From positions 1 through 34,845 of the forward strand of contig CAMYIO010000077.1 of NCBI GenBank assembly GCA_947258515.1: 34,845 bases of DNA, written 5' to 3'. Every line of letters starts with the position of its first letter. Within the stretch, counting starts at the first letter, position 1. Source of the stretch: an uncultured Ectothiorhodospiraceae bacterium (GTDB taxonomy: Bacteria; Pseudomonadota; Gammaproteobacteria; UBA9214). This document shows positions 3,208-33,738 of the stretch, in pieces. The translations under genes and the position numbers were made by a program. The notes beneath the pieces are model-generated. The model was not told where the DNA came from. It saw nothing but the letters and a program-made list of their open reading frames with translations, and did no database searches.

Positions 3208-3559
3208 GTGTAGCTGGTGGATACCAGGACACCTGAACCTGGCCACAATTATTTATCGAAATTTGTCAGAGAATATATCTGGACCCTATATTCGCAAATT
3301 GCACTGACCGCAGTTCCCGCGTCGCAAATTGCAAATAGACAGCCATGGGATTACTGTTTAGAACACGTTACTCATATCAGGCTTAGCCCCCGTTTGCAGG
3401 CCTTTTACGCCCTGGCAGGCGTTGATGCTGATCCTGATGGCCGATTGGCCTGATTATTGCTCCTAAACCTGGCAGCAATTCAAATAGATCAGAAACAGAC
3501 AACCCGTCCAGTGGAGATATTCCATTATAAGACAACTACATCGCTGTCTGACGGGCTGT

Positions 3560-4399
3560 TTGCTTGCACTGCTCCTTGCAAGCAGCAGCCATGCAGAGAT
3601 AACCGGGCAAGCCCTGACCTTCGGGATCGTCCCGCAACAGTCAGCTGCCAAGCTGGCGCGGGTGTGGACACCGCTGCTGGAACATCTCTCGACTCTGACC
3701 GGTCAACGCCTGTTATTCAGAACGGCCCCTAATATTCCAGAGTTCGAACGCCGCCTGGCTAACGGTGAGTACGATCTTGCCTACATGAACCCTTATCACT
3801 ACACCACTTTCCACCGTTCCCCCGGCTACCAGGCATTTGCCAGGGAAAAAGGGAAGCGTCTAAAAGGTATTATCGTGGTGCGCGCAGACAGCCCATACAA
3901 GGACCTGGATGAATTGGCTGACCAGACCCTGGCTTTCCCCTCCCCCGCCGCATTTGCCGCCAGCATTATTACCCGCGCGCAGTTCAGCGGACTCGGAATC
4001 GCTATCACACCCAAATATGTCTCATCTCATGACTCGGTCTATCGATCAGTAGCGGTAGGGCTCTACCCGGCAGGTGGCGGCGTCATGCGTACGCTAAACG
4101 GCCTGGAACCTGAAGTTCGGGAGAAGCTGCGTATCCTGTGGACCTCTGAGCCCTACACGTCGCATGCCATTGCAGCACACCCCCGGGTACCGAGCGACAC
4201 AGTTAACACCGTGTTAACAGCAATGCAGCAACTGGAAAACACTGAACAGGGAAGGCAACTGCTTAGCCAAATAAACTTCAAAGGGATTGTCGCTGCAAGC
4301 GATGCTGAATGGGACGACATCCGCAAGCTGAACATTGACCTGCTTGATGGCCTGGTTGCCAGTCCGGCAACCACAACGGAGGGCAGTCACACACCGTGA
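3560..4399 (+). CDS. PhnD-like periplasmic substrate-binding protein (sensor partner of the adjacent kinase)
   Basis: A periplasmic protein of the phosphate/phosphite/phosphonate-binding family, about 280 residues (usual family length). The family layout is visible: TFGIVPQQSA at the N-terminal lobe, GEYDLAYMNPYHY, the hinge-side stretch SHDSVYRSVAVGL, and AGGGVMRTLNGL. No transporter permease or ATPase gene is near, and the stop codon overlaps the kinase gene (GTGA at 4396), so its job is probably to present a ligand to the kinase. The start is uncertain. The TTG at 3560 cuts the signal peptide short; the frame is open back to 3488, and an ATT at 3524 with GGAG eight bases before it would give a proper signal peptide with basic residues (IIRQLHRCL). 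The ligand is unknown. Confidence 0.85.
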   Translation: MLALLLASSSHAEITGQALTFGIVPQQSAAKLARVWTPLLEHLSTLTGQRLLFRTAPNIPEFERRLANGEYDLAYMNPYHYTTFHRSPGYQAFAREKGKRLKGIIVVRADSPYKDLDELADQTLAFPSPAAFAASIITRAQFSGLGIAITPKYVSSHDSVYRSVAVGLYPAGGGVMRTLNGLEPEVREKLRILWTSEPYTSHAIAAHPRVPSDTVNTVLTAMQQLENTEQGRQLLSQINFKGIVAASDAEWDDIRKLNIDLLDGLVASPATTTEGSHTP

Positions 4400-4863
4400 C
4401 CTTTCGCCAGAAAACTATTTTCGGCGTTGCCGTAATCGAGGCAATCCTGCTGGTTGTATTGATCTGGACAGGCATCAATTATCTGCGCTCGATTAACGAG
4501 TCAGAACTTATCAAACGGGCGGCGGCAACATTGACCCTTCTCTCCCGTGCTTCCCGTGATGCTGTCCTCTCGACTGACATGGCGACATTGCATGATATCG
4601 TCAATGATGCCATTTCGATACCGGAACTTGGCTACGTGCGCATCCTGAATCCGGATGGAGTCATTCTGGCTGAGGCCGGGCCAAACCTTCCGGCACACGG
4701 TATCTTTTCGGCAGATCTGGACTATGCATCCGTAGACGACGGCAGCTTCGACACCGCCATTGATATCAAGGAGAGCAACACTCGCTATGGCCGGCTCGAG
4801 GTTGGAATTTTAACCTCGCACATCGACAACGTTATCAGCGATGCCGGCAGCTCACCAGCCTGA
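4396..4863 (+). CDS. N-terminal sensor fragment of the hybrid histidine kinase (disrupted gene)
   Basis: A 155-residue frame starting at GTG within the upstream stop codon. It has one membrane helix (about residues 8-27) and a periplasmic sensor region up to about residue 145. It stops at 4861 just where a second membrane helix should begin. The HAMP domain continues in another frame (from about 4842: RQLTSLNDASRRI, then GNDELAHTVRAFNQM) straight into the kinase frame beginning at 4962. No frame in this stretch encodes a hydrophobic helix. The simplest reading is an out-of-frame deletion that removed TM2. As it stands this would be a membrane-anchored sensor stub without a kinase. Confidence 0.75.
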   Translation: MTFRQKTIFGVAVIEAILLVVLIWTGINYLRSINESELIKRAAATLTLLSRASRDAVLSTDMATLHDIVNDAISIPELGYVRILNPDGVILAEAGPNLPAHGIFSADLDYASVDDGSFDTAIDIKESNTRYGRLEVGILTSHIDNVISDAGSSPA

Positions 4864-4961
4864 ATGATGCCTCCCGCCGTATAATCAATGGTGAACTGGG
4901 ATATCAACTCCCTGTACAGGGTAATGACGAACTGGCTCATACGGTAAGGGCCTTCAACCAA

Positions 4962-6977
4962 ATGTCATTACACTTGCAGGAAGATGTAAAGCAGCAAGAT
5001 GCCATTATCAAGTCCGCGCTGGACTGTATTATCAACATGGACAATGAAGGCCTTATCACCGAGTTCAACCCTGTTGCAGAAGAGACCTTCGGTTACAGCC
5101 GGAAAGAAGTCATCGGCCGTCCCTTAGTGGACACAATCATTCCACCCGCATCCCGCGAGGCACACAACAAGGGGCTTGAGCACTACCTGGTAACAGGTGA
5201 AACTTCGATTCTGGGTAATCGCATCGAGGTAAAGGCCATGCGCTCGGACAGCACGGAGTTTCCGGTCGAAATGTCCATCAACGTAACCTGGATTGAGAAG
5301 AAACCACTTTTTACCGCCTACCTTCGCGACATTACCGAACGACGCATTCAAGAAGCCGCCATGAGACAGGCAAAGAATCTCGCGGAAGAAGCGGCAGAGG
5401 CGAAATCAAGCTTCCTTGCCAACATGAGCCATGAAATCCGCACACCCATGAATGCCGTACTTGGATTACTTGGCCTGCTGGCGAATGAAGATAATCTGAC
5501 CGCCCAGCAGAAAGCATGGGTTAAAACAGCCCATCAATCAAGCGGCTTACTGCTCAACCTGATCAACAATACCCTGGATTTTTCAAAGATCGATTCCGGG
5601 AAAGTGGAGCTGGATTTTGCAAGCTTCAACCTCCGCTCGCTGATCGACACCACCATCAACATGTTCAGACCCAAAGCCGAATCCAGGGGGATCACCCTGT
5701 CCAGCTGTCTGGGGAAGACCTTGCCAGCCTTCATCGAAGGCGATAGCGGACGTCTGCGGCAGATACTGATCAACCTGGTTGGCAATGCCATCAAATTTAC
5801 TCATGAAGGCACGATCAATCTGGATATCACACTGACTGGAGACAGCGAACACCGGTTCATTCGCTTCGCAGTATCTGACACCGGGGTCGGCATCCCGGCC
5901 GGGGATCTCGATAAATTGTTTACCGAATTTACCCAACTGACCCCGGGCGGCATCACTCACTCCGAGGGAACAGGGCTCGGCCTGGCTATCTCCAGGCAAC
6001 TGGTTACTCTGATGGACGGACAAATCGGCGTGGAAAGCGAGCCGGACAAGGGCAGTTGCTTCTGGTTTGAAATTCCCCTTGTTGAGGGCAAACACTGCAA
6101 CGAAAAAACGCCGGGGACCGGGCCGTCCATGGACAGAATAGCGCCGGTTAGCGGGAAGAAATATACCCAGGCATCAAGACCCGCAGGGCACGGGGCTCGT
6201 ATTCTTCTCGCCGAGGACAGCCCCGCCAACCAGATGGTGGCGCTGTCCATGCTGAAGGACACCGGTTACCACATTGATACCGTGATCAATGGGAAGGAAG
6301 CCGTGGAATCAATGAGAAACCTGCCCTACGACCTGGTGCTCATGGACATCTCCATGCCGGAAATGAATGGAATGGAAGCGACCGCTGTAATTCGCAAGCT
6401 GGCTGGTGACAAGGGTCGCGTGCCTGTCATCGCCATGACAGCTCATGCCATAAAGGGAGACCGTGAAAAGTTCCTTGCTTCAGGCATGGACGATTACATT
6501 TCCAAGCCGGTCGACAAGCAACTGTTGCTGGATATCCTTGATAAATGGTTGCCCGAAGACCCTGCAGCCACCCGGGTCGGAAACACAGGCGGGCCGGCAA
6601 TGCGAGACCTGCAGATGCTCGACATCAATACACTGGAACAGCTTGCACGCGACACCAGCCCCGATTTAATGCCCCACATGCTTGCCGCCTTCCGCAAGGA
6701 AACGGTCAAACGCATACACGTCATATCACAGTCACTGTCTCCACTCGCAGCGGAACAGCTGGAGCGTGAATCACACAGCCTGAAATCCAGCGCCGGCACG
6801 TTTGGCGCCTTCGACCTGCAACAGCTGGCAAGATGTGTGGAACCAGGTGATAGCGGAACTGGACCACTACCTGGTGATGACACAACAACAAGAACCGCTA
6901 CACGCTGGCACCGAGACATAAACTTAACGGTTTGTATTGCCTTGTTTTACATTCCATTGCTCAATATATATCACTGA
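4962..6977 (+). CDS. Hybrid sensor histidine kinase, PAS-HisKA-HATPase-REC-Hpt (5' and 3' ends frameshifted)
   Basis: The kinase half of the disrupted gene: PAS (about residues 11-125), HisKA with His157 (SHEIRTP), HATPase with Asn275 (NLVGNAIKFT), G1 DTGVG 306-310 and G2 GTGLGL 336-341, a receiver with Asp462 (LMDISMPEMNG) and Lys515, and an Hpt domain with His605 (SHSLKSS). The ATG at 4962 has no ribosome site and lies inside the HAMP segment, which is open upstream in the same frame, so the true start is the GTG at 4396. Near 6838 the frame breaks again. The natural Hpt end is read in another frame from about 6838 (WNQVIAELDHYLVM) and stops at 6921, while this frame runs on into nonsense to 6977. 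The receiver and Hpt would feed a phosphorelay to the next gene. It is probably a pseudogene unless the breaks are assembly errors. Confidence 0.85.
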   Translation: MSLHLQEDVKQQDAIIKSALDCIINMDNEGLITEFNPVAEETFGYSRKEVIGRPLVDTIIPPASREAHNKGLEHYLVTGETSILGNRIEVKAMRSDSTEFPVEMSINVTWIEKKPLFTAYLRDITERRIQEAAMRQAKNLAEEAAEAKSSFLANMSHEIRTPMNAVLGLLGLLANEDNLTAQQKAWVKTAHQSSGLLLNLINNTLDFSKIDSGKVELDFASFNLRSLIDTTINMFRPKAESRGITLSSCLGKTLPAFIEGDSGRLRQILINLVGNAIKFTHEGTINLDITLTGDSEHRFIRFAVSDTGVGIPAGDLDKLFTEFTQLTPGGITHSEGTGLGLAISRQLVTLMDGQIGVESEPDKGSCFWFEIPLVEGKHCNEKTPGTGPSMDRIAPVSGKKYTQASRPAGHGARILLAEDSPANQMVALSMLKDTGYHIDTVINGKEAVESMRNLPYDLVLMDISMPEMNGMEATAVIRKLAGDKGRVPVIAMTAHAIKGDREKFLASGMDDYISKPVDKQLLLDILDKWLPEDPAATRVGNTGGPAMRDLQMLDINTLEQLARDTSPDLMPHMLAAFRKETVKRIHVISQSLSPLAAEQLERESHSLKSSAGTFGAFDLQQLARCVEPGDSGTGPLPGDDTTTRTATRWHRDINLTVCIALFYIPLLNIYH

Positions 6978-7010: not shown

Positions 7011-8423
7011 ATGAAAAACACAGCTGCGAAAATATTGCTTGTTGAAGACAGCCACTCTGTCGCTGTTGTCTACCAGGAGTACCTGAACGAGCGAGGCTAC
7101 CAGGTGACGCATGTCGACACCGGGAAAGCCGCACTCGAGGCAATTGAAACAGATATCCCCAATGCCATCCTGCTGGACCTGCAACTGCCTGATATGAACG
7201 GCAAGCTTATTCTCGAGGATGTTGTTGCACGCGCCCTGCCCACTGCCGTTGTGGTCATCACCGCACATGGATCAGTGGATATTGCGGTCGAAATCATGCA
7301 GGCAGGCGCCCTGGATTTCATCGAAAAACCGTTCACAGCCGACCGGCTTTTCGTGACTCTCGACAATGCGCTCAAGCGGCAGGATCTGGAAGAAGTCGTT
7401 GACCTGTTACGCCGCAACCACTTTCATGGTTTCGTTGGTGCTTCGCTGCCGATGCAATCGGTCTACCAGATCATCTCCAGTGCTTCCACCAGCAAGGCGA
7501 CCGTGTTCATAACCGGGGAAAGCGGCACCGGCAAGGAAGTCTGCGCCCAGGCCATTCACGACGAAAGTCCGCGAAGGAACAAAGCGTTTATCGCACTCAA
7601 TTGCGCGGCCATTCCCCGCGAGTTGATGGAAAGCGAAATCTTCGGCCATGTAAAAGGCGCCTTCACCGGGGCAGTAACGGCACGGGAAGGCGCGGCAGCA
7701 CGTTCTGATGGCGGGACCCTGTTCCTTGACGAAGTCTGTGAAATGAACCTGGAATTGCAGAGCAAGCTGCTGCGTTTCATCCAGACAGCCAGCTTTCAGA
7801 AGGTTGGTGGCAGCAAGCTCCAGGAGGTCGACGTGCGTTTTATATGCGCAACCAACAAGAACCCCATGGAGGAAGTCAAGGCTGGACGTTTCCGTGAAGA
7901 CCTGTACTACCGGCTGCATGTAATCCCGATCAACCTGCCCGCACTGCGAAATCGCGAAGAGGATATTCTGCTTATCGCCCGGTATTTCCTGACTCGCTAC
8001 AGCACTGAGGAAAACAAGGGTTTTGTGCGTTTTTCACCCGAAACCGAAGCACTACTGCTGGATTACCAATGGCCAGGAAATGTTCGCCAGCTACAGAACG
8101 TGATCCGCAATATTGTAGTCTTGAGTGACTGTGACACAGTTACTACCTCCATGCTGCCATCACCACTTGACCAACTGGTAGCCACCACTGGCGGCAATTT
8201 TCCGGATCACCCCGGTACTACAGGAAATCCCACGAACGCCCGGGAGGCTGCTGTTCAGTCCGCGCCAATCCGTCCCTTGTGGCAGATTGAGAAACAGGCC
8301 ATTGAACAGGCCATTGAACAGTGTGACGGCAATATCCCCAAGGCCGCAGCCCTGCTGAATATCAGCCCTTCCACGATCTACCGCAAACGACAGCACTGGG
8401 AAAACCAGCTCCCCTCTCTCTGA
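7011..8423 (+). CDS. Sigma54-dependent response regulator (LuxO/NtrC type)
   Basis: A complete 470-residue activator. The receiver domain (1-125) has Asp56 (LLDLQLPDMNG), Thr84 and Lys106. The AAA+ domain (about 140-380) has Walker A GESGTGKE (169-176), the sigma54-contact loop GAFTGA (216-221), Walker B GGTLFLDEV (234-242) and the arginine-bearing stretch AGRFREDLYYRL. A Fis-type helix-turn-helix lies at about 440-463 (NIPKAAALLNISPSTIYRKR). On phosphorylation such proteins drive sigma54 promoters by ATP hydrolysis. It follows the hybrid kinase by about 90 bases and precedes a matching -24/-12 promoter at 8512, so the downstream receiver-phosphatase is a likely target. Sequence style is closest to LuxO, as far as can be judged by eye. 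Confidence 0.95.
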   Translation: MKNTAAKILLVEDSHSVAVVYQEYLNERGYQVTHVDTGKAALEAIETDIPNAILLDLQLPDMNGKLILEDVVARALPTAVVVITAHGSVDIAVEIMQAGALDFIEKPFTADRLFVTLDNALKRQDLEEVVDLLRRNHFHGFVGASLPMQSVYQIISSASTSKATVFITGESGTGKEVCAQAIHDESPRRNKAFIALNCAAIPRELMESEIFGHVKGAFTGAVTAREGAAARSDGGTLFLDEVCEMNLELQSKLLRFIQTASFQKVGGSKLQEVDVRFICATNKNPMEEVKAGRFREDLYYRLHVIPINLPALRNREEDILLIARYFLTRYSTEENKGFVRFSPETEALLLDYQWPGNVRQLQNVIRNIVVLSDCDTVTTSMLPSPLDQLVATTGGNFPDHPGTTGNPTNAREAAVQSAPIRPLWQIEKQAIEQAIEQCDGNIPKAAALLNISPSTIYRKRQHWENQLPSL

Positions 8424-23436: not shown

Positions 23437-24483
23437 GTGGCAGGCATGGATCTCCAACTCCCCATCAGAAGGAAAATCACCAACAGCAGCTTTGATACCC
23501 GGACGGAGGTCGTCAGGGCGTGGGTGGACGAGCTGCCACTTATCAATGCCGAAAAATCATGGTCACTTCTGGATAATGCACTGAAAGAGATAAACTCACT
23601 CAGTATTTCGACCAAAAACCGGCTTGAGGCACTCGAACTGCTGGCAACCTCTGTCATCTGTGTAGCCGAGACAATGAAGAAGGCTTTCCTGGCAAAGCCC
23701 ATACCGCTCCGCGACCATAACCTGAAGCTGGCATGGGGCGTCATACCAAAACGCAGGTTTTCCCGACATGCCAAGACCGCGAAGGTCGGTCTGGTAGTCG
23801 GTCTCAATGCAATCCACCAGCGGGTGACAGGACCCGGCACCGAGTCGATCGGCAGTGAAGAGACCAGAGAAGACCAGCATTACCTGCAGGATCCAACATT
23901 TGAGGCCAGCACAACATTCAGGGTCAACCCGTTTGACGACAGCGGCCGTCGTATTGTCACGACAGCGAAAACACCGGCCCGGGGGGCTTCCAGTAAAGAC
24001 TCGACAAACACACCCCGTATCGAGTCATGGACCATGGCCAATATCAGTGCCGGTGGCTACTCGCTGCTGTGGGACAGCGTTGATTCATCCAATGCCCAGG
24101 TCGGCGAGTTGGTCGCCATTATCGAGCAGAACAATCTTTGCGAGGACGAGTGGCATCTGGGCGTCGTAAGGTGGATGAAATGCACCCGTACCTACGGGCT
24201 TGAGCTCGGCATTCAAATGCTTTCACCAAGCGCACAGGCTGTATGGGCCTACATGGATGAAAGCGGCATCCACTGCGGCAGAAAGATGCAGGGGATATTA
24301 CTGCCAGAGGTCAAAATGCTCAGACAACGGGCCAGCCTGCTGCTGCCAACCCTGCCCTTTCGGGCCGGTTGTATTGCCACCCTTGAGACTGCCGGGTCGC
24401 TGGAAAATATCAAACTGTCGCGGCAACTGGAGAATACCGGAAGTTTTGCCCAGTACCATTTTTATGATTCTATATATGACTGA
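23437..24483 (+). CDS. PilZ-like domain protein, apparently lacking its central region
   Basis: A 348-residue cytoplasmic protein. An N-terminal helical part (about 20-98) reads VRAWVDELPLINAEKSW and RLEALELLATSV. The C-terminal part holds a PilZ-like barrel: SWTMANISAGGYSLLW has the NxSxxG motif (Asn202, Ser204, Gly207), followed by VGELVAI, WHLGVVRWM and YGLELGIQML. Basic RRFSR (106-110) lies some 95 residues earlier, farther than in ordinary PilZ domains. From memory, proteins of this design are much longer (about 550-600 residues), with a helical middle between NLKLA and the RRFSR stretch. Here the two ends meet at residue 100, so an in-frame deletion is suspected. It may bind cyclic di-GMP. 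Confidence 0.7.
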   Translation: MAGMDLQLPIRRKITNSSFDTRTEVVRAWVDELPLINAEKSWSLLDNALKEINSLSISTKNRLEALELLATSVICVAETMKKAFLAKPIPLRDHNLKLAWGVIPKRRFSRHAKTAKVGLVVGLNAIHQRVTGPGTESIGSEETREDQHYLQDPTFEASTTFRVNPFDDSGRRIVTTAKTPARGASSKDSTNTPRIESWTMANISAGGYSLLWDSVDSSNAQVGELVAIIEQNNLCEDEWHLGVVRWMKCTRTYGLELGIQMLSPSAQAVWAYMDESGIHCGRKMQGILLPEVKMLRQRASLLLPTLPFRAGCIATLETAGSLENIKLSRQLENTGSFAQYHFYDSIYD

Positions 24484-25014: not shown

Positions 25015-25224
25015 CAAGGGGCTCCGTCGTAACAAAGTTGCTCTGGCCAACGCCGAATCAGGCGCTCAAATATACTGGATTTCAGTCACTTGCATGCTAA
25101 CAGGAAACACTTTTCCAGAAAACACCCGCGTAACAGGGCCGGGTTGCGGGAAGGTTTGACTATATAGGGAATACTTCAGACTTACTCAATATTGCCGAAA
25201 AACCTGTAGTCGGAGCCCGGTTAA

Positions 25225-25479
25225 GTGCAATGCCAGCCGCTGGGCGTCATACAGGTCATCGAGGAAGCGAGGTCAGCTGTGCAGCAGGGAGAGAATTTAC
25301 ACCTCCTCATCATCGAGGAGAGCAGAAATGACGCAGAGTCACTGGCAAACGCACTGCGCAGCGAGGGGCATCAAATACAGTTCAGGCATGGCACGACAGC
25401 GCACCGCTTATTGCCATTGCCGAAGAAGCCACTGAAGCCGATATCGTCGCCGCACAAAAATCCGGCATCAGCAGCCTGA
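25225..25479 (+). pseudogene. N-terminal half of a receiver domain, broken start of the FimX-like gene
   Basis: An 84-residue frame from GTG 25225; GTG 25279 with AGG before it is the likelier start. It encodes the first beta-alpha-beta of a receiver (LHLLIIEESRNDAESLANAL, GHQIQFRHG) and then turns to nonsense near 25390. In the other frame the receiver's second half reads from about 25395 (DSAPLIAIAEEATEADIVAA, GISSLISYDQPDHLQLAF) directly into the gene at 25554. The central 40 or so residues, including the phosphorylation-site region, are in neither frame. This is an out-of-frame deletion or an assembly gap. Confidence 0.7.
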
Positions 25480-25553
25480 TTTCCTATGACCAGCCGGATC
25501 ACCTGCAGCTGGCCTTTAACAGGGAAATTACGCTACTGCGGCTGCAGCAGAAA

Positions 25554-27242
25554 ATGGACGCGCTCAATAATGCCCTGCATGGAAGTGAAGCCCGCTGTCA
25601 CACCCTGATTGAAAATTCCAGTGACGCGGTTGCCTACATTCATGATGGCATGCATGTCTTTGCCAACCGCACCTACATGGATTTATTCGCTATTGAAAGT
25701 TGCGTAGAAATCGAGGGCACTCCCATACTGGACATGGTCAGCGAATCCCATCGCGATACATTCAAGGGTTTTCTGAAAGGCTTCTTTGAAAATAGTGCAG
25801 AAGATAACAGTCTTGAGGTTGACTGTCTGAATCCCGCTGGCGAAATATTCCAGTGCAAAATGGAACTGTCGCCGGCAACAATGGATGGAGAACCCTGCAC
25901 CCAGATAATCATCCGTATAAACGCATCGAATGCCGCACTCGAGAAAAGAATCGAGAACATGTCCCGGCTCGATGCATTAACAGGACTCACCAACCGCCAG
26001 CACTTCATGCAGTTACTCGAAGAGCGCATCGGCGAACAGGGTAGTGAAGACACTCACCGTGCCCTGATCTATATCACGCTGGATAACTTCAAGGTAATAC
26101 GGGAAGATCGCGGCATTTCGACCAGTGACATCTTGCTGTGTGATATCGCGAGGCTCCTCGAAGAAAATTGCGGGGGCCAGGATTGCATGTCACGTTTTGG
26201 CGATTACAGTTTTACGATACTGCACTACGATAGCAACGAGGAAAAAACGCTGGCCCTGGGTGAAACCCTGCTACACAAAATTGCCGGTCACGTATCGGAA
26301 GCGGACAATCATGCCGTCACCACCACCGGCAGCATTGGCTGCTGCGCGATCAACAGCAAGTTATGCGATGCACAAAAGATAATTTCCTACGCTGATATGG
26401 CGTGCGAGGTCGCCCGCTCATCAGGTGGCAACCAGATCCATTACCACAGTGCCATTGTCAATGAACAAATGGGACAGGAGAACGAACCGGAGTGGGATCA
26501 CATTATCCGCACGACGATTGATGATGAACGCTTCTACCTTGCCTATCAGCCAATTGTCAGCCTGAAAGGCGACACCCGTCAACGTTACGAGGTACTGCTC
26601 AGGGTTATTGACGAAGCCGGTCATGCCATCCTGCCGGGACAATTTCTGTCACTCGCAGAGAAAACCGGCCTCAGTGGCGAAATCGACCACTGGATCATCG
26701 CAACGGCCCTGCGGAAACTCGTCGAGTTAAGAAAGGACAACAGTGAGGCCCTGTTTTATATCAAGCTTTCCGGGTCAACACTGACGGATGCAGGAATGCC
26801 GGAATGGATCAACGGGCAACTCAGGGAAAACAGCCTCAGTAGCGATCGCATTGTTTTTGAAATACCGGAATGCATTGCCATCGATGATCTGAAAAACGCC
26901 ATGTCTTTCGTCAAGAGCATGCAAAGCCTGCATTTCAGAATCGCATTCGAACATTACGGACACAGTGACCAGCCACAGCTTCTGAAACATGTACCCGTTG
27001 ATATCCTTAAAATCGACGGCGCCCTTATCAGCGGACTACCCGGCAACAAGGAGAATCAGTCAAGGGTCAAGGCGATACTCGAACTGGCAAAGGAGCACGG
27101 CAAGGATACCGTCGCGGAATGTGTTGATGATGCCGGCAGTCTGGCGCAGTTGTGGCAATTCGGTGTGGACTTTATCCAGGGGAATTTTGTACAGGAACCC
27201 TGCAAGGAACTCGAGTATGACTTTGAGGGCGAGATAGCATAA
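25554..27242 (+). CDS. FimX-like PAS-GGDEF-EAL cyclic di-GMP protein (degenerate motifs)
   Basis: A 562-residue frame; the true protein begins earlier (see the broken receiver at 25225), and the frame is open upstream to about 25380. PAS: about 15-125 (SSDAVAYIHDGMHVFANRTY). GGDEF domain: about 130-297 with the motif changed to GDYSF (216-220), so no cyclase activity is expected. EAL domain: about 312-555 with EVL (346-348) for EAL, and changed metal ligands (YIKLSGSTL), so it is likely a cyclic di-GMP receptor rather than a phosphodiesterase. Pseudomonas FimX has the same domain order and an EVL motif, and controls type IV pili. No pilus genes are in the window. Confidence 0.85.
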   Translation: MDALNNALHGSEARCHTLIENSSDAVAYIHDGMHVFANRTYMDLFAIESCVEIEGTPILDMVSESHRDTFKGFLKGFFENSAEDNSLEVDCLNPAGEIFQCKMELSPATMDGEPCTQIIIRINASNAALEKRIENMSRLDALTGLTNRQHFMQLLEERIGEQGSEDTHRALIYITLDNFKVIREDRGISTSDILLCDIARLLEENCGGQDCMSRFGDYSFTILHYDSNEEKTLALGETLLHKIAGHVSEADNHAVTTTGSIGCCAINSKLCDAQKIISYADMACEVARSSGGNQIHYHSAIVNEQMGQENEPEWDHIIRTTIDDERFYLAYQPIVSLKGDTRQRYEVLLRVIDEAGHAILPGQFLSLAEKTGLSGEIDHWIIATALRKLVELRKDNSEALFYIKLSGSTLTDAGMPEWINGQLRENSLSSDRIVFEIPECIAIDDLKNAMSFVKSMQSLHFRIAFEHYGHSDQPQLLKHVPVDILKIDGALISGLPGNKENQSRVKAILELAKEHGKDTVAECVDDAGSLAQLWQFGVDFIQGNFVQEPCKELEYDFEGEIA

Positions 27243-33607: not shown

Positions 33608-33672
33608 ATCAGAATTATCTGTTAGTTATCGATTCGATAGTGCGCATCGTTTTTTGAATGTGGTAATTTTAG

Positions 33673-33734
33673 TCGCGGATACGATCCGCTCCTGCAGGTG
33701 CATCAAGCAATGCGGGTGCGGATCGCATCCGCGA
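33673..33734. repeat. REP-like inverted repeat between parE and parC
   Basis: Two 17-base arms, TCGCGGATACGATCCGC (33673-33689) and GCGGATCGCATCCGCGA (33718-33734), are inverted copies with one mismatch around a 28-base centre. Each arm is itself a GCGGAT/ATCCGC palindrome. On the minus strand the core reads GCAGGAGCGGATCGTATCCG, very like the GTAGGAGCGGAT-type REP sequences of gammaproteobacteria that are spread by RAYT transposases. It could fold in mRNA between the two genes and alter parC output. Confidence 0.75.
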
Positions 33735-33738
33735 TGCC

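Follow-up and report, generated by a model that had tools for sequence, protein, structure and literature searches.

The question raised by this locus is whether a sensor kinase gene that changes reading frame where its second membrane helix should lie has been broken in the organism or in the assembly. The window, by which we mean the whole stretch of DNA that was analysed (34,845 nucleotides from an uncultured Ectothiorhodospiraceae bacterium, genome assembly G000), contains an operon of ordinary arrangement, comprising genes for a PhnD-like binding protein, an sCache-HAMP-PAS hybrid histidine kinase and an NtrC-type regulator. The features of this operon are as follows:

3560 to 4399, + strand: gene for a PhnD-like substrate-binding protein of the phosphonate type, lying upstream of the kinase gene and with an uncertain start codon (PF12974, E=1.1e-60; 75% amino-acid identity to G004)
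4396 to 4845, + strand: sensor portion of the kinase gene, with TM1 and sCache_3_2 in frame 1 (the stop lies at 4861-4863; 75% identical to residues 1-152 of the G004 kinase)
4844 to 4845, + strand: junction of an 82-bp gap, where the second membrane helix (TM2) is lost and frame 1 gives way to frame 3 (alignment to L023; tblastn matches at 4390-4845 and 4845-6851, with 27 aa missing)
4845 to 6829, + strand: frame 3 region with HAMP, PAS, HisKA, HATPase_c, REC and the beginning of HPt (Pfam; no other stop)
6829 to 6831, + strand: second out-of-frame junction, at which HPt lacks about 68 bp (codon count)
6832 to 6921, + strand: native C-terminal tail of the kinase (DVWNQVIAELDHYLVMTQQQEPLHAGTET, followed by the stop), in another frame (comparison with homologs)
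7011 to 8423, + strand: NtrC-type response regulator, intact and syntenic (Pfam; colinear with L023 and L024)

The kinase gene starts at GTG 4396 and overlaps the end of the PhnD-like gene. The latter has ATT, and none of ATG, GTG or TTG, at the site of the ATG of its G004 ortholog (window positions ~3535-3562), and its first common start is TTG 3560, which lies inside the signal peptide. Further upstream, at 2208-2933, two small adjacent ORFs of 88 and 108 aa show no Pfam match, and several similar copies of them occur elsewhere in G000 and its relatives.

The kinase frame from 4845 contains PF00512 (HisKA), PF02518 (HATPase_c) and PF00072 (REC), and the core domains of a hybrid sensor histidine kinase are thus present. 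The kinase gene of the window does not show two membrane helices flanking a Cache domain in the same frame as HAMP: TM2 is lacking and the two frames are out of register. The reference for the gap was an intact, syntenic hybrid histidine kinase of 891 aa from a same-genus genome (G004:C176). It lies beside a PhnD-like gene and an NtrC-type regulator, shares gene order and domain order with the window, and is 75% identical at the amino-acid level in the sensor and 66% in the kinase part. It possesses the 82-nt TM2 segment and a full HPt, whereas the window has neither.

At 4844/4845 the kinase gene undergoes a single frame change: homology to intact kinases ends at 4845 in the sensor frame and restarts at 4845 in the kinase frame. 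The original prediction had placed the end of the sensor frame at 4861 and the break at the expected position of TM2, and both placements agree with our results, the stop occupying 4861-4863. It had also described the lesion as an out-of-frame deletion of roughly 30 codons rather than a one-base slip, and had proposed a comparison with the closest relative's kinase. This comparison gave a missing segment of 82 nt, or 27 1/3 codons (approximately L023 1883-1964), which encodes RRKAGTIALIEMLLVALFSLALGTYLT, that is, TM2 and its flanks. All window frames at this position were searched for a second membrane helix and none encodes one, as had been claimed. The HAMP segment is indeed read in a different frame from that of the sensor; the further suggestion that RQLTSLNDASRRI and NGELGYQLPVQGNDELAH lie in different frames did not hold, as they share one frame (SRRIINGELG), which is the kinase frame. 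Homologs naturally devoid of TM2 had been named as a case that would speak against a deletion, and the three homologous kinases at L023, L024 and L025 all have TM2 at the gap position. Besides G004:C176, intact homologs were found in G010 and on a second G004 contig. A search of the genome contigs for a close relative returned distant kinases only.

These alignments bear directly on the possibility that a single-base frameshift or a recoding site joins the two kinase frames. The change does fall between overlapping frames, as such a site would require, but, relative to three homologs, the window lacks 82 nt of conserved sequence at TM2, and the helix is encoded in no frame. The alignment refutes a one-base slip or recoding, and we attach practically no credence to this reading.

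The damage also extends further than the original prediction had recognized: the 82-bp gap is confirmed in the sequence, but a second gap, in HPt, had gone unnoticed. After LQQLA at ~6829, the homologous tail VWNQVIAELDHY (in G004, AWEQVKIELEIY) goes on in another frame. The PF01627 match covers positions 1-56 of 84 before the frame changes, and the middle of the domain is removed; counted by codon, the loss is ~68 nt.

Could the two parts nevertheless form a split working system, consisting of a TM1-Cache protein of 155 aa and an independent soluble PAS-HisKA-REC kinase? An ATG at 4962 begins a reading frame of 671 aa in which the H, N and G boxes and the REC motifs are retained. However, this ATG is preceded, ~10 nt upstream, only by a weak AAGG-like sequence, and it lies downstream of most of HAMP, which would be cut. 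In addition, HPt is broken too, and the arrangement is seen in no relative examined. We therefore consider a split system very unlikely.

The original prediction treated the break as specific to the kinase gene. This view was not supported, as lesions of the same size and type were found in other genes of the assembly, including its sole lysS, but not in same-genus genomes. These findings point to an assembly fault, which the original prediction had itself named as a case that would speak against it. Two further gaps lie in the window itself:

23722 to 23733, + strand: junction of an in-frame gap; the uncharacterised gene at 23437-24483 lacks about 630 bp that G003 and G004 possess
25392 to 25404 (~25398), + strand: junction of an out-of-frame gap in a REC-PAS-GGDEF-EAL gene (25210-27242), whose REC domain is about 118 bp shorter than in G003 and G004

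The window thus carries three out-of-frame gaps and one 630-bp in-frame gap in 35 kb, a load above the genome average sampled. Near its far end, at ~33672-33735, a palindromic element between parC and parE has a predicted folding energy of -48.6 kcal/mol as RNA; a dispersed family of ~65-bp elements occurs in dozens of copies in G000, G004 and G010.

A hexamer frame HMM scan covered 0.82 of the 3.59 Mb of G000, including the window, and a combined 0.85 Mb from the same-genus genomes G003 and G004. It revealed seven frame changes unexplained by gene junctions in G000 versus none in the relatives, and alignment confirmed most of the seven. When the window is set aside, the counts are five and none, a modest but consistent difference. 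Inspection and alignment confirm the sites in lysS, a nuoH-like gene and an nrfD-like gene, plus two in the window; L234:5149 appears by eye to be another such gap, and the flagged site L137:11952, outside the window, is probably an ordinary gene junction. An ORF comparison added a glyoxalase-like gene. The shared lesion type is a loss of 50-131 nt, not a multiple of three, between two flanks that each match intact orthologs at 60-99% identity. The sizes are 83 nt in lysS, 80 in the nuoH-like gene, 131 in the nrfD-like gene, 55 in the glyoxalase-like gene, 118 in the REC-GGDEF-EAL gene, and 82 and ~68 in the kinase. The nuoH-like gap is identical relative to G003 and G010, and the nrfD-like gap is seen relative to two relatives. 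In the reverse direction, the ORF comparison yielded no out-of-frame losses exceeding 2 nt in the relatives; this comparison is biased, as the relatives' loci for lysS, nuoH and nrfD were chosen because the scan had flagged them, whereas the HMM scan is unbiased. On the minus strand of L136, near 15069, the inorganic pyrophosphatase gene (ppa) shows a one-base slip relative to G003 and G010, and only small indels are present there.

With regard to mechanism, short direct repeats had been proposed as something to look for at the ends of the 82-bp gap; none were found, and junction homology is 0-1 bp. Across seven junctions it is 0-2 bp, judged from the relatives, and the missing segments show no unusual folding or GC. 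Deletion mediated by direct repeats or hairpins is thereby ruled out. Deletions targeting membrane helices are likewise ruled out, given that the losses in lysS, HPt, REC and the glyoxalase-like gene affect soluble parts. The missing nuoH segment was not found elsewhere in the G000 assembly. The gaps could be real in a subpopulation if an unusual genome-wide process deleted stretches of ~50-130 bp without repeats, which we regard as highly improbable.

The lysS gap removes 83 nt, out of frame, from the only class II lysyl-tRNA synthetase (LysRS) found in G000. The N-terminal frame reaches only position 213 of the 308 of PF00152, the synthetase core, whereas that of G004 reaches 307. Other hits in the LysRS search were EpmA-like and AspS-like, and neither a second lysS nor a class I LysRS was found in G000, the class I hits being below the family cut-off. 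LysRS is essential. As this lysS is the sole copy, its gap cannot hold in a living cell, and local assembly error throughout the assembly is therefore the simplest account. The kinase gap can be attributed to the same cause with no additional assumption. The pattern is the recurrence expected of local assembly error, with the same fault appearing across the assembly and hitting genes that the cell cannot lose.

The main competing explanation is a real, recent pseudogene, in which two illegitimate deletions removed TM2 and part of HPt in the population, so that a TM1-Cache fragment remains, together with a kinase frame untranslated from the sensor start. Several observations are in its favor. 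The two deletions lie in one gene, an accessory one, and the lesion density of the window exceeds the sampled average; a decaying operon would also give two lesions in one gene. The upstream gene shows a start-codon change (ATT versus ATG in G004), there is a slight excess of amino-acid changes specific to the window (48 versus 31 on the G004 branch), and no sensor homolog was found in G003. However, a non-biological cause is needed in any case for the lesions of this type in other conserved genes, the sole lysS among them. Moreover, the downstream regulator is intact and dN/dS is low: the kinase frames are otherwise under purifying constraint (about 0.13-0.22 pairwise; for 4845 to 6829 relative to G004, dN is 0.22 and dS is 1.0). 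These dN/dS values and the branch counts are nevertheless compatible with a pseudogene as well as with an assembly error. We consider a pseudogene unlikely, albeit clearly less so than the other alternatives.

We conclude that the 82-bp break is probably an assembly error rather than biology, and that the kinase gene is probably whole in the organism. The absence of 82 bp at 4844/4845 and of ~68 bp at ~6829 from the contig would reflect the joining of sequence over short stretches that were missing during assembly, and the same joining apparently affected several other genes of G000. Such a cause, rather than mutation, is suggested by the recurrence of gaps of similar size in G000 and by their absence from the sampled parts of the relatives. 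Out-of-frame gaps of 50-130 bp in genes of this assembly are not grounds for calling pseudogenes, and read support is needed for frame-based findings from G000. Were the deletion real, it would amount to the unremarkable inactivation of a sensor kinase; real or artefactual, the break is an ordinary one.

Local assembly errors in MAGs are known to damage genes (PMC7111523), and assembly errors account for many apparent pseudogenes (PMC11017572). Local assembly errors are defined by a lack of perfect read support; the faults in G000 were identified from assembled sequences. The faults in G000 resemble these local assembly errors and spurious pseudogenes in that they are scattered over one assembly and lie in constrained genes, at sites without unusual sequence, with needed genes among those damaged.
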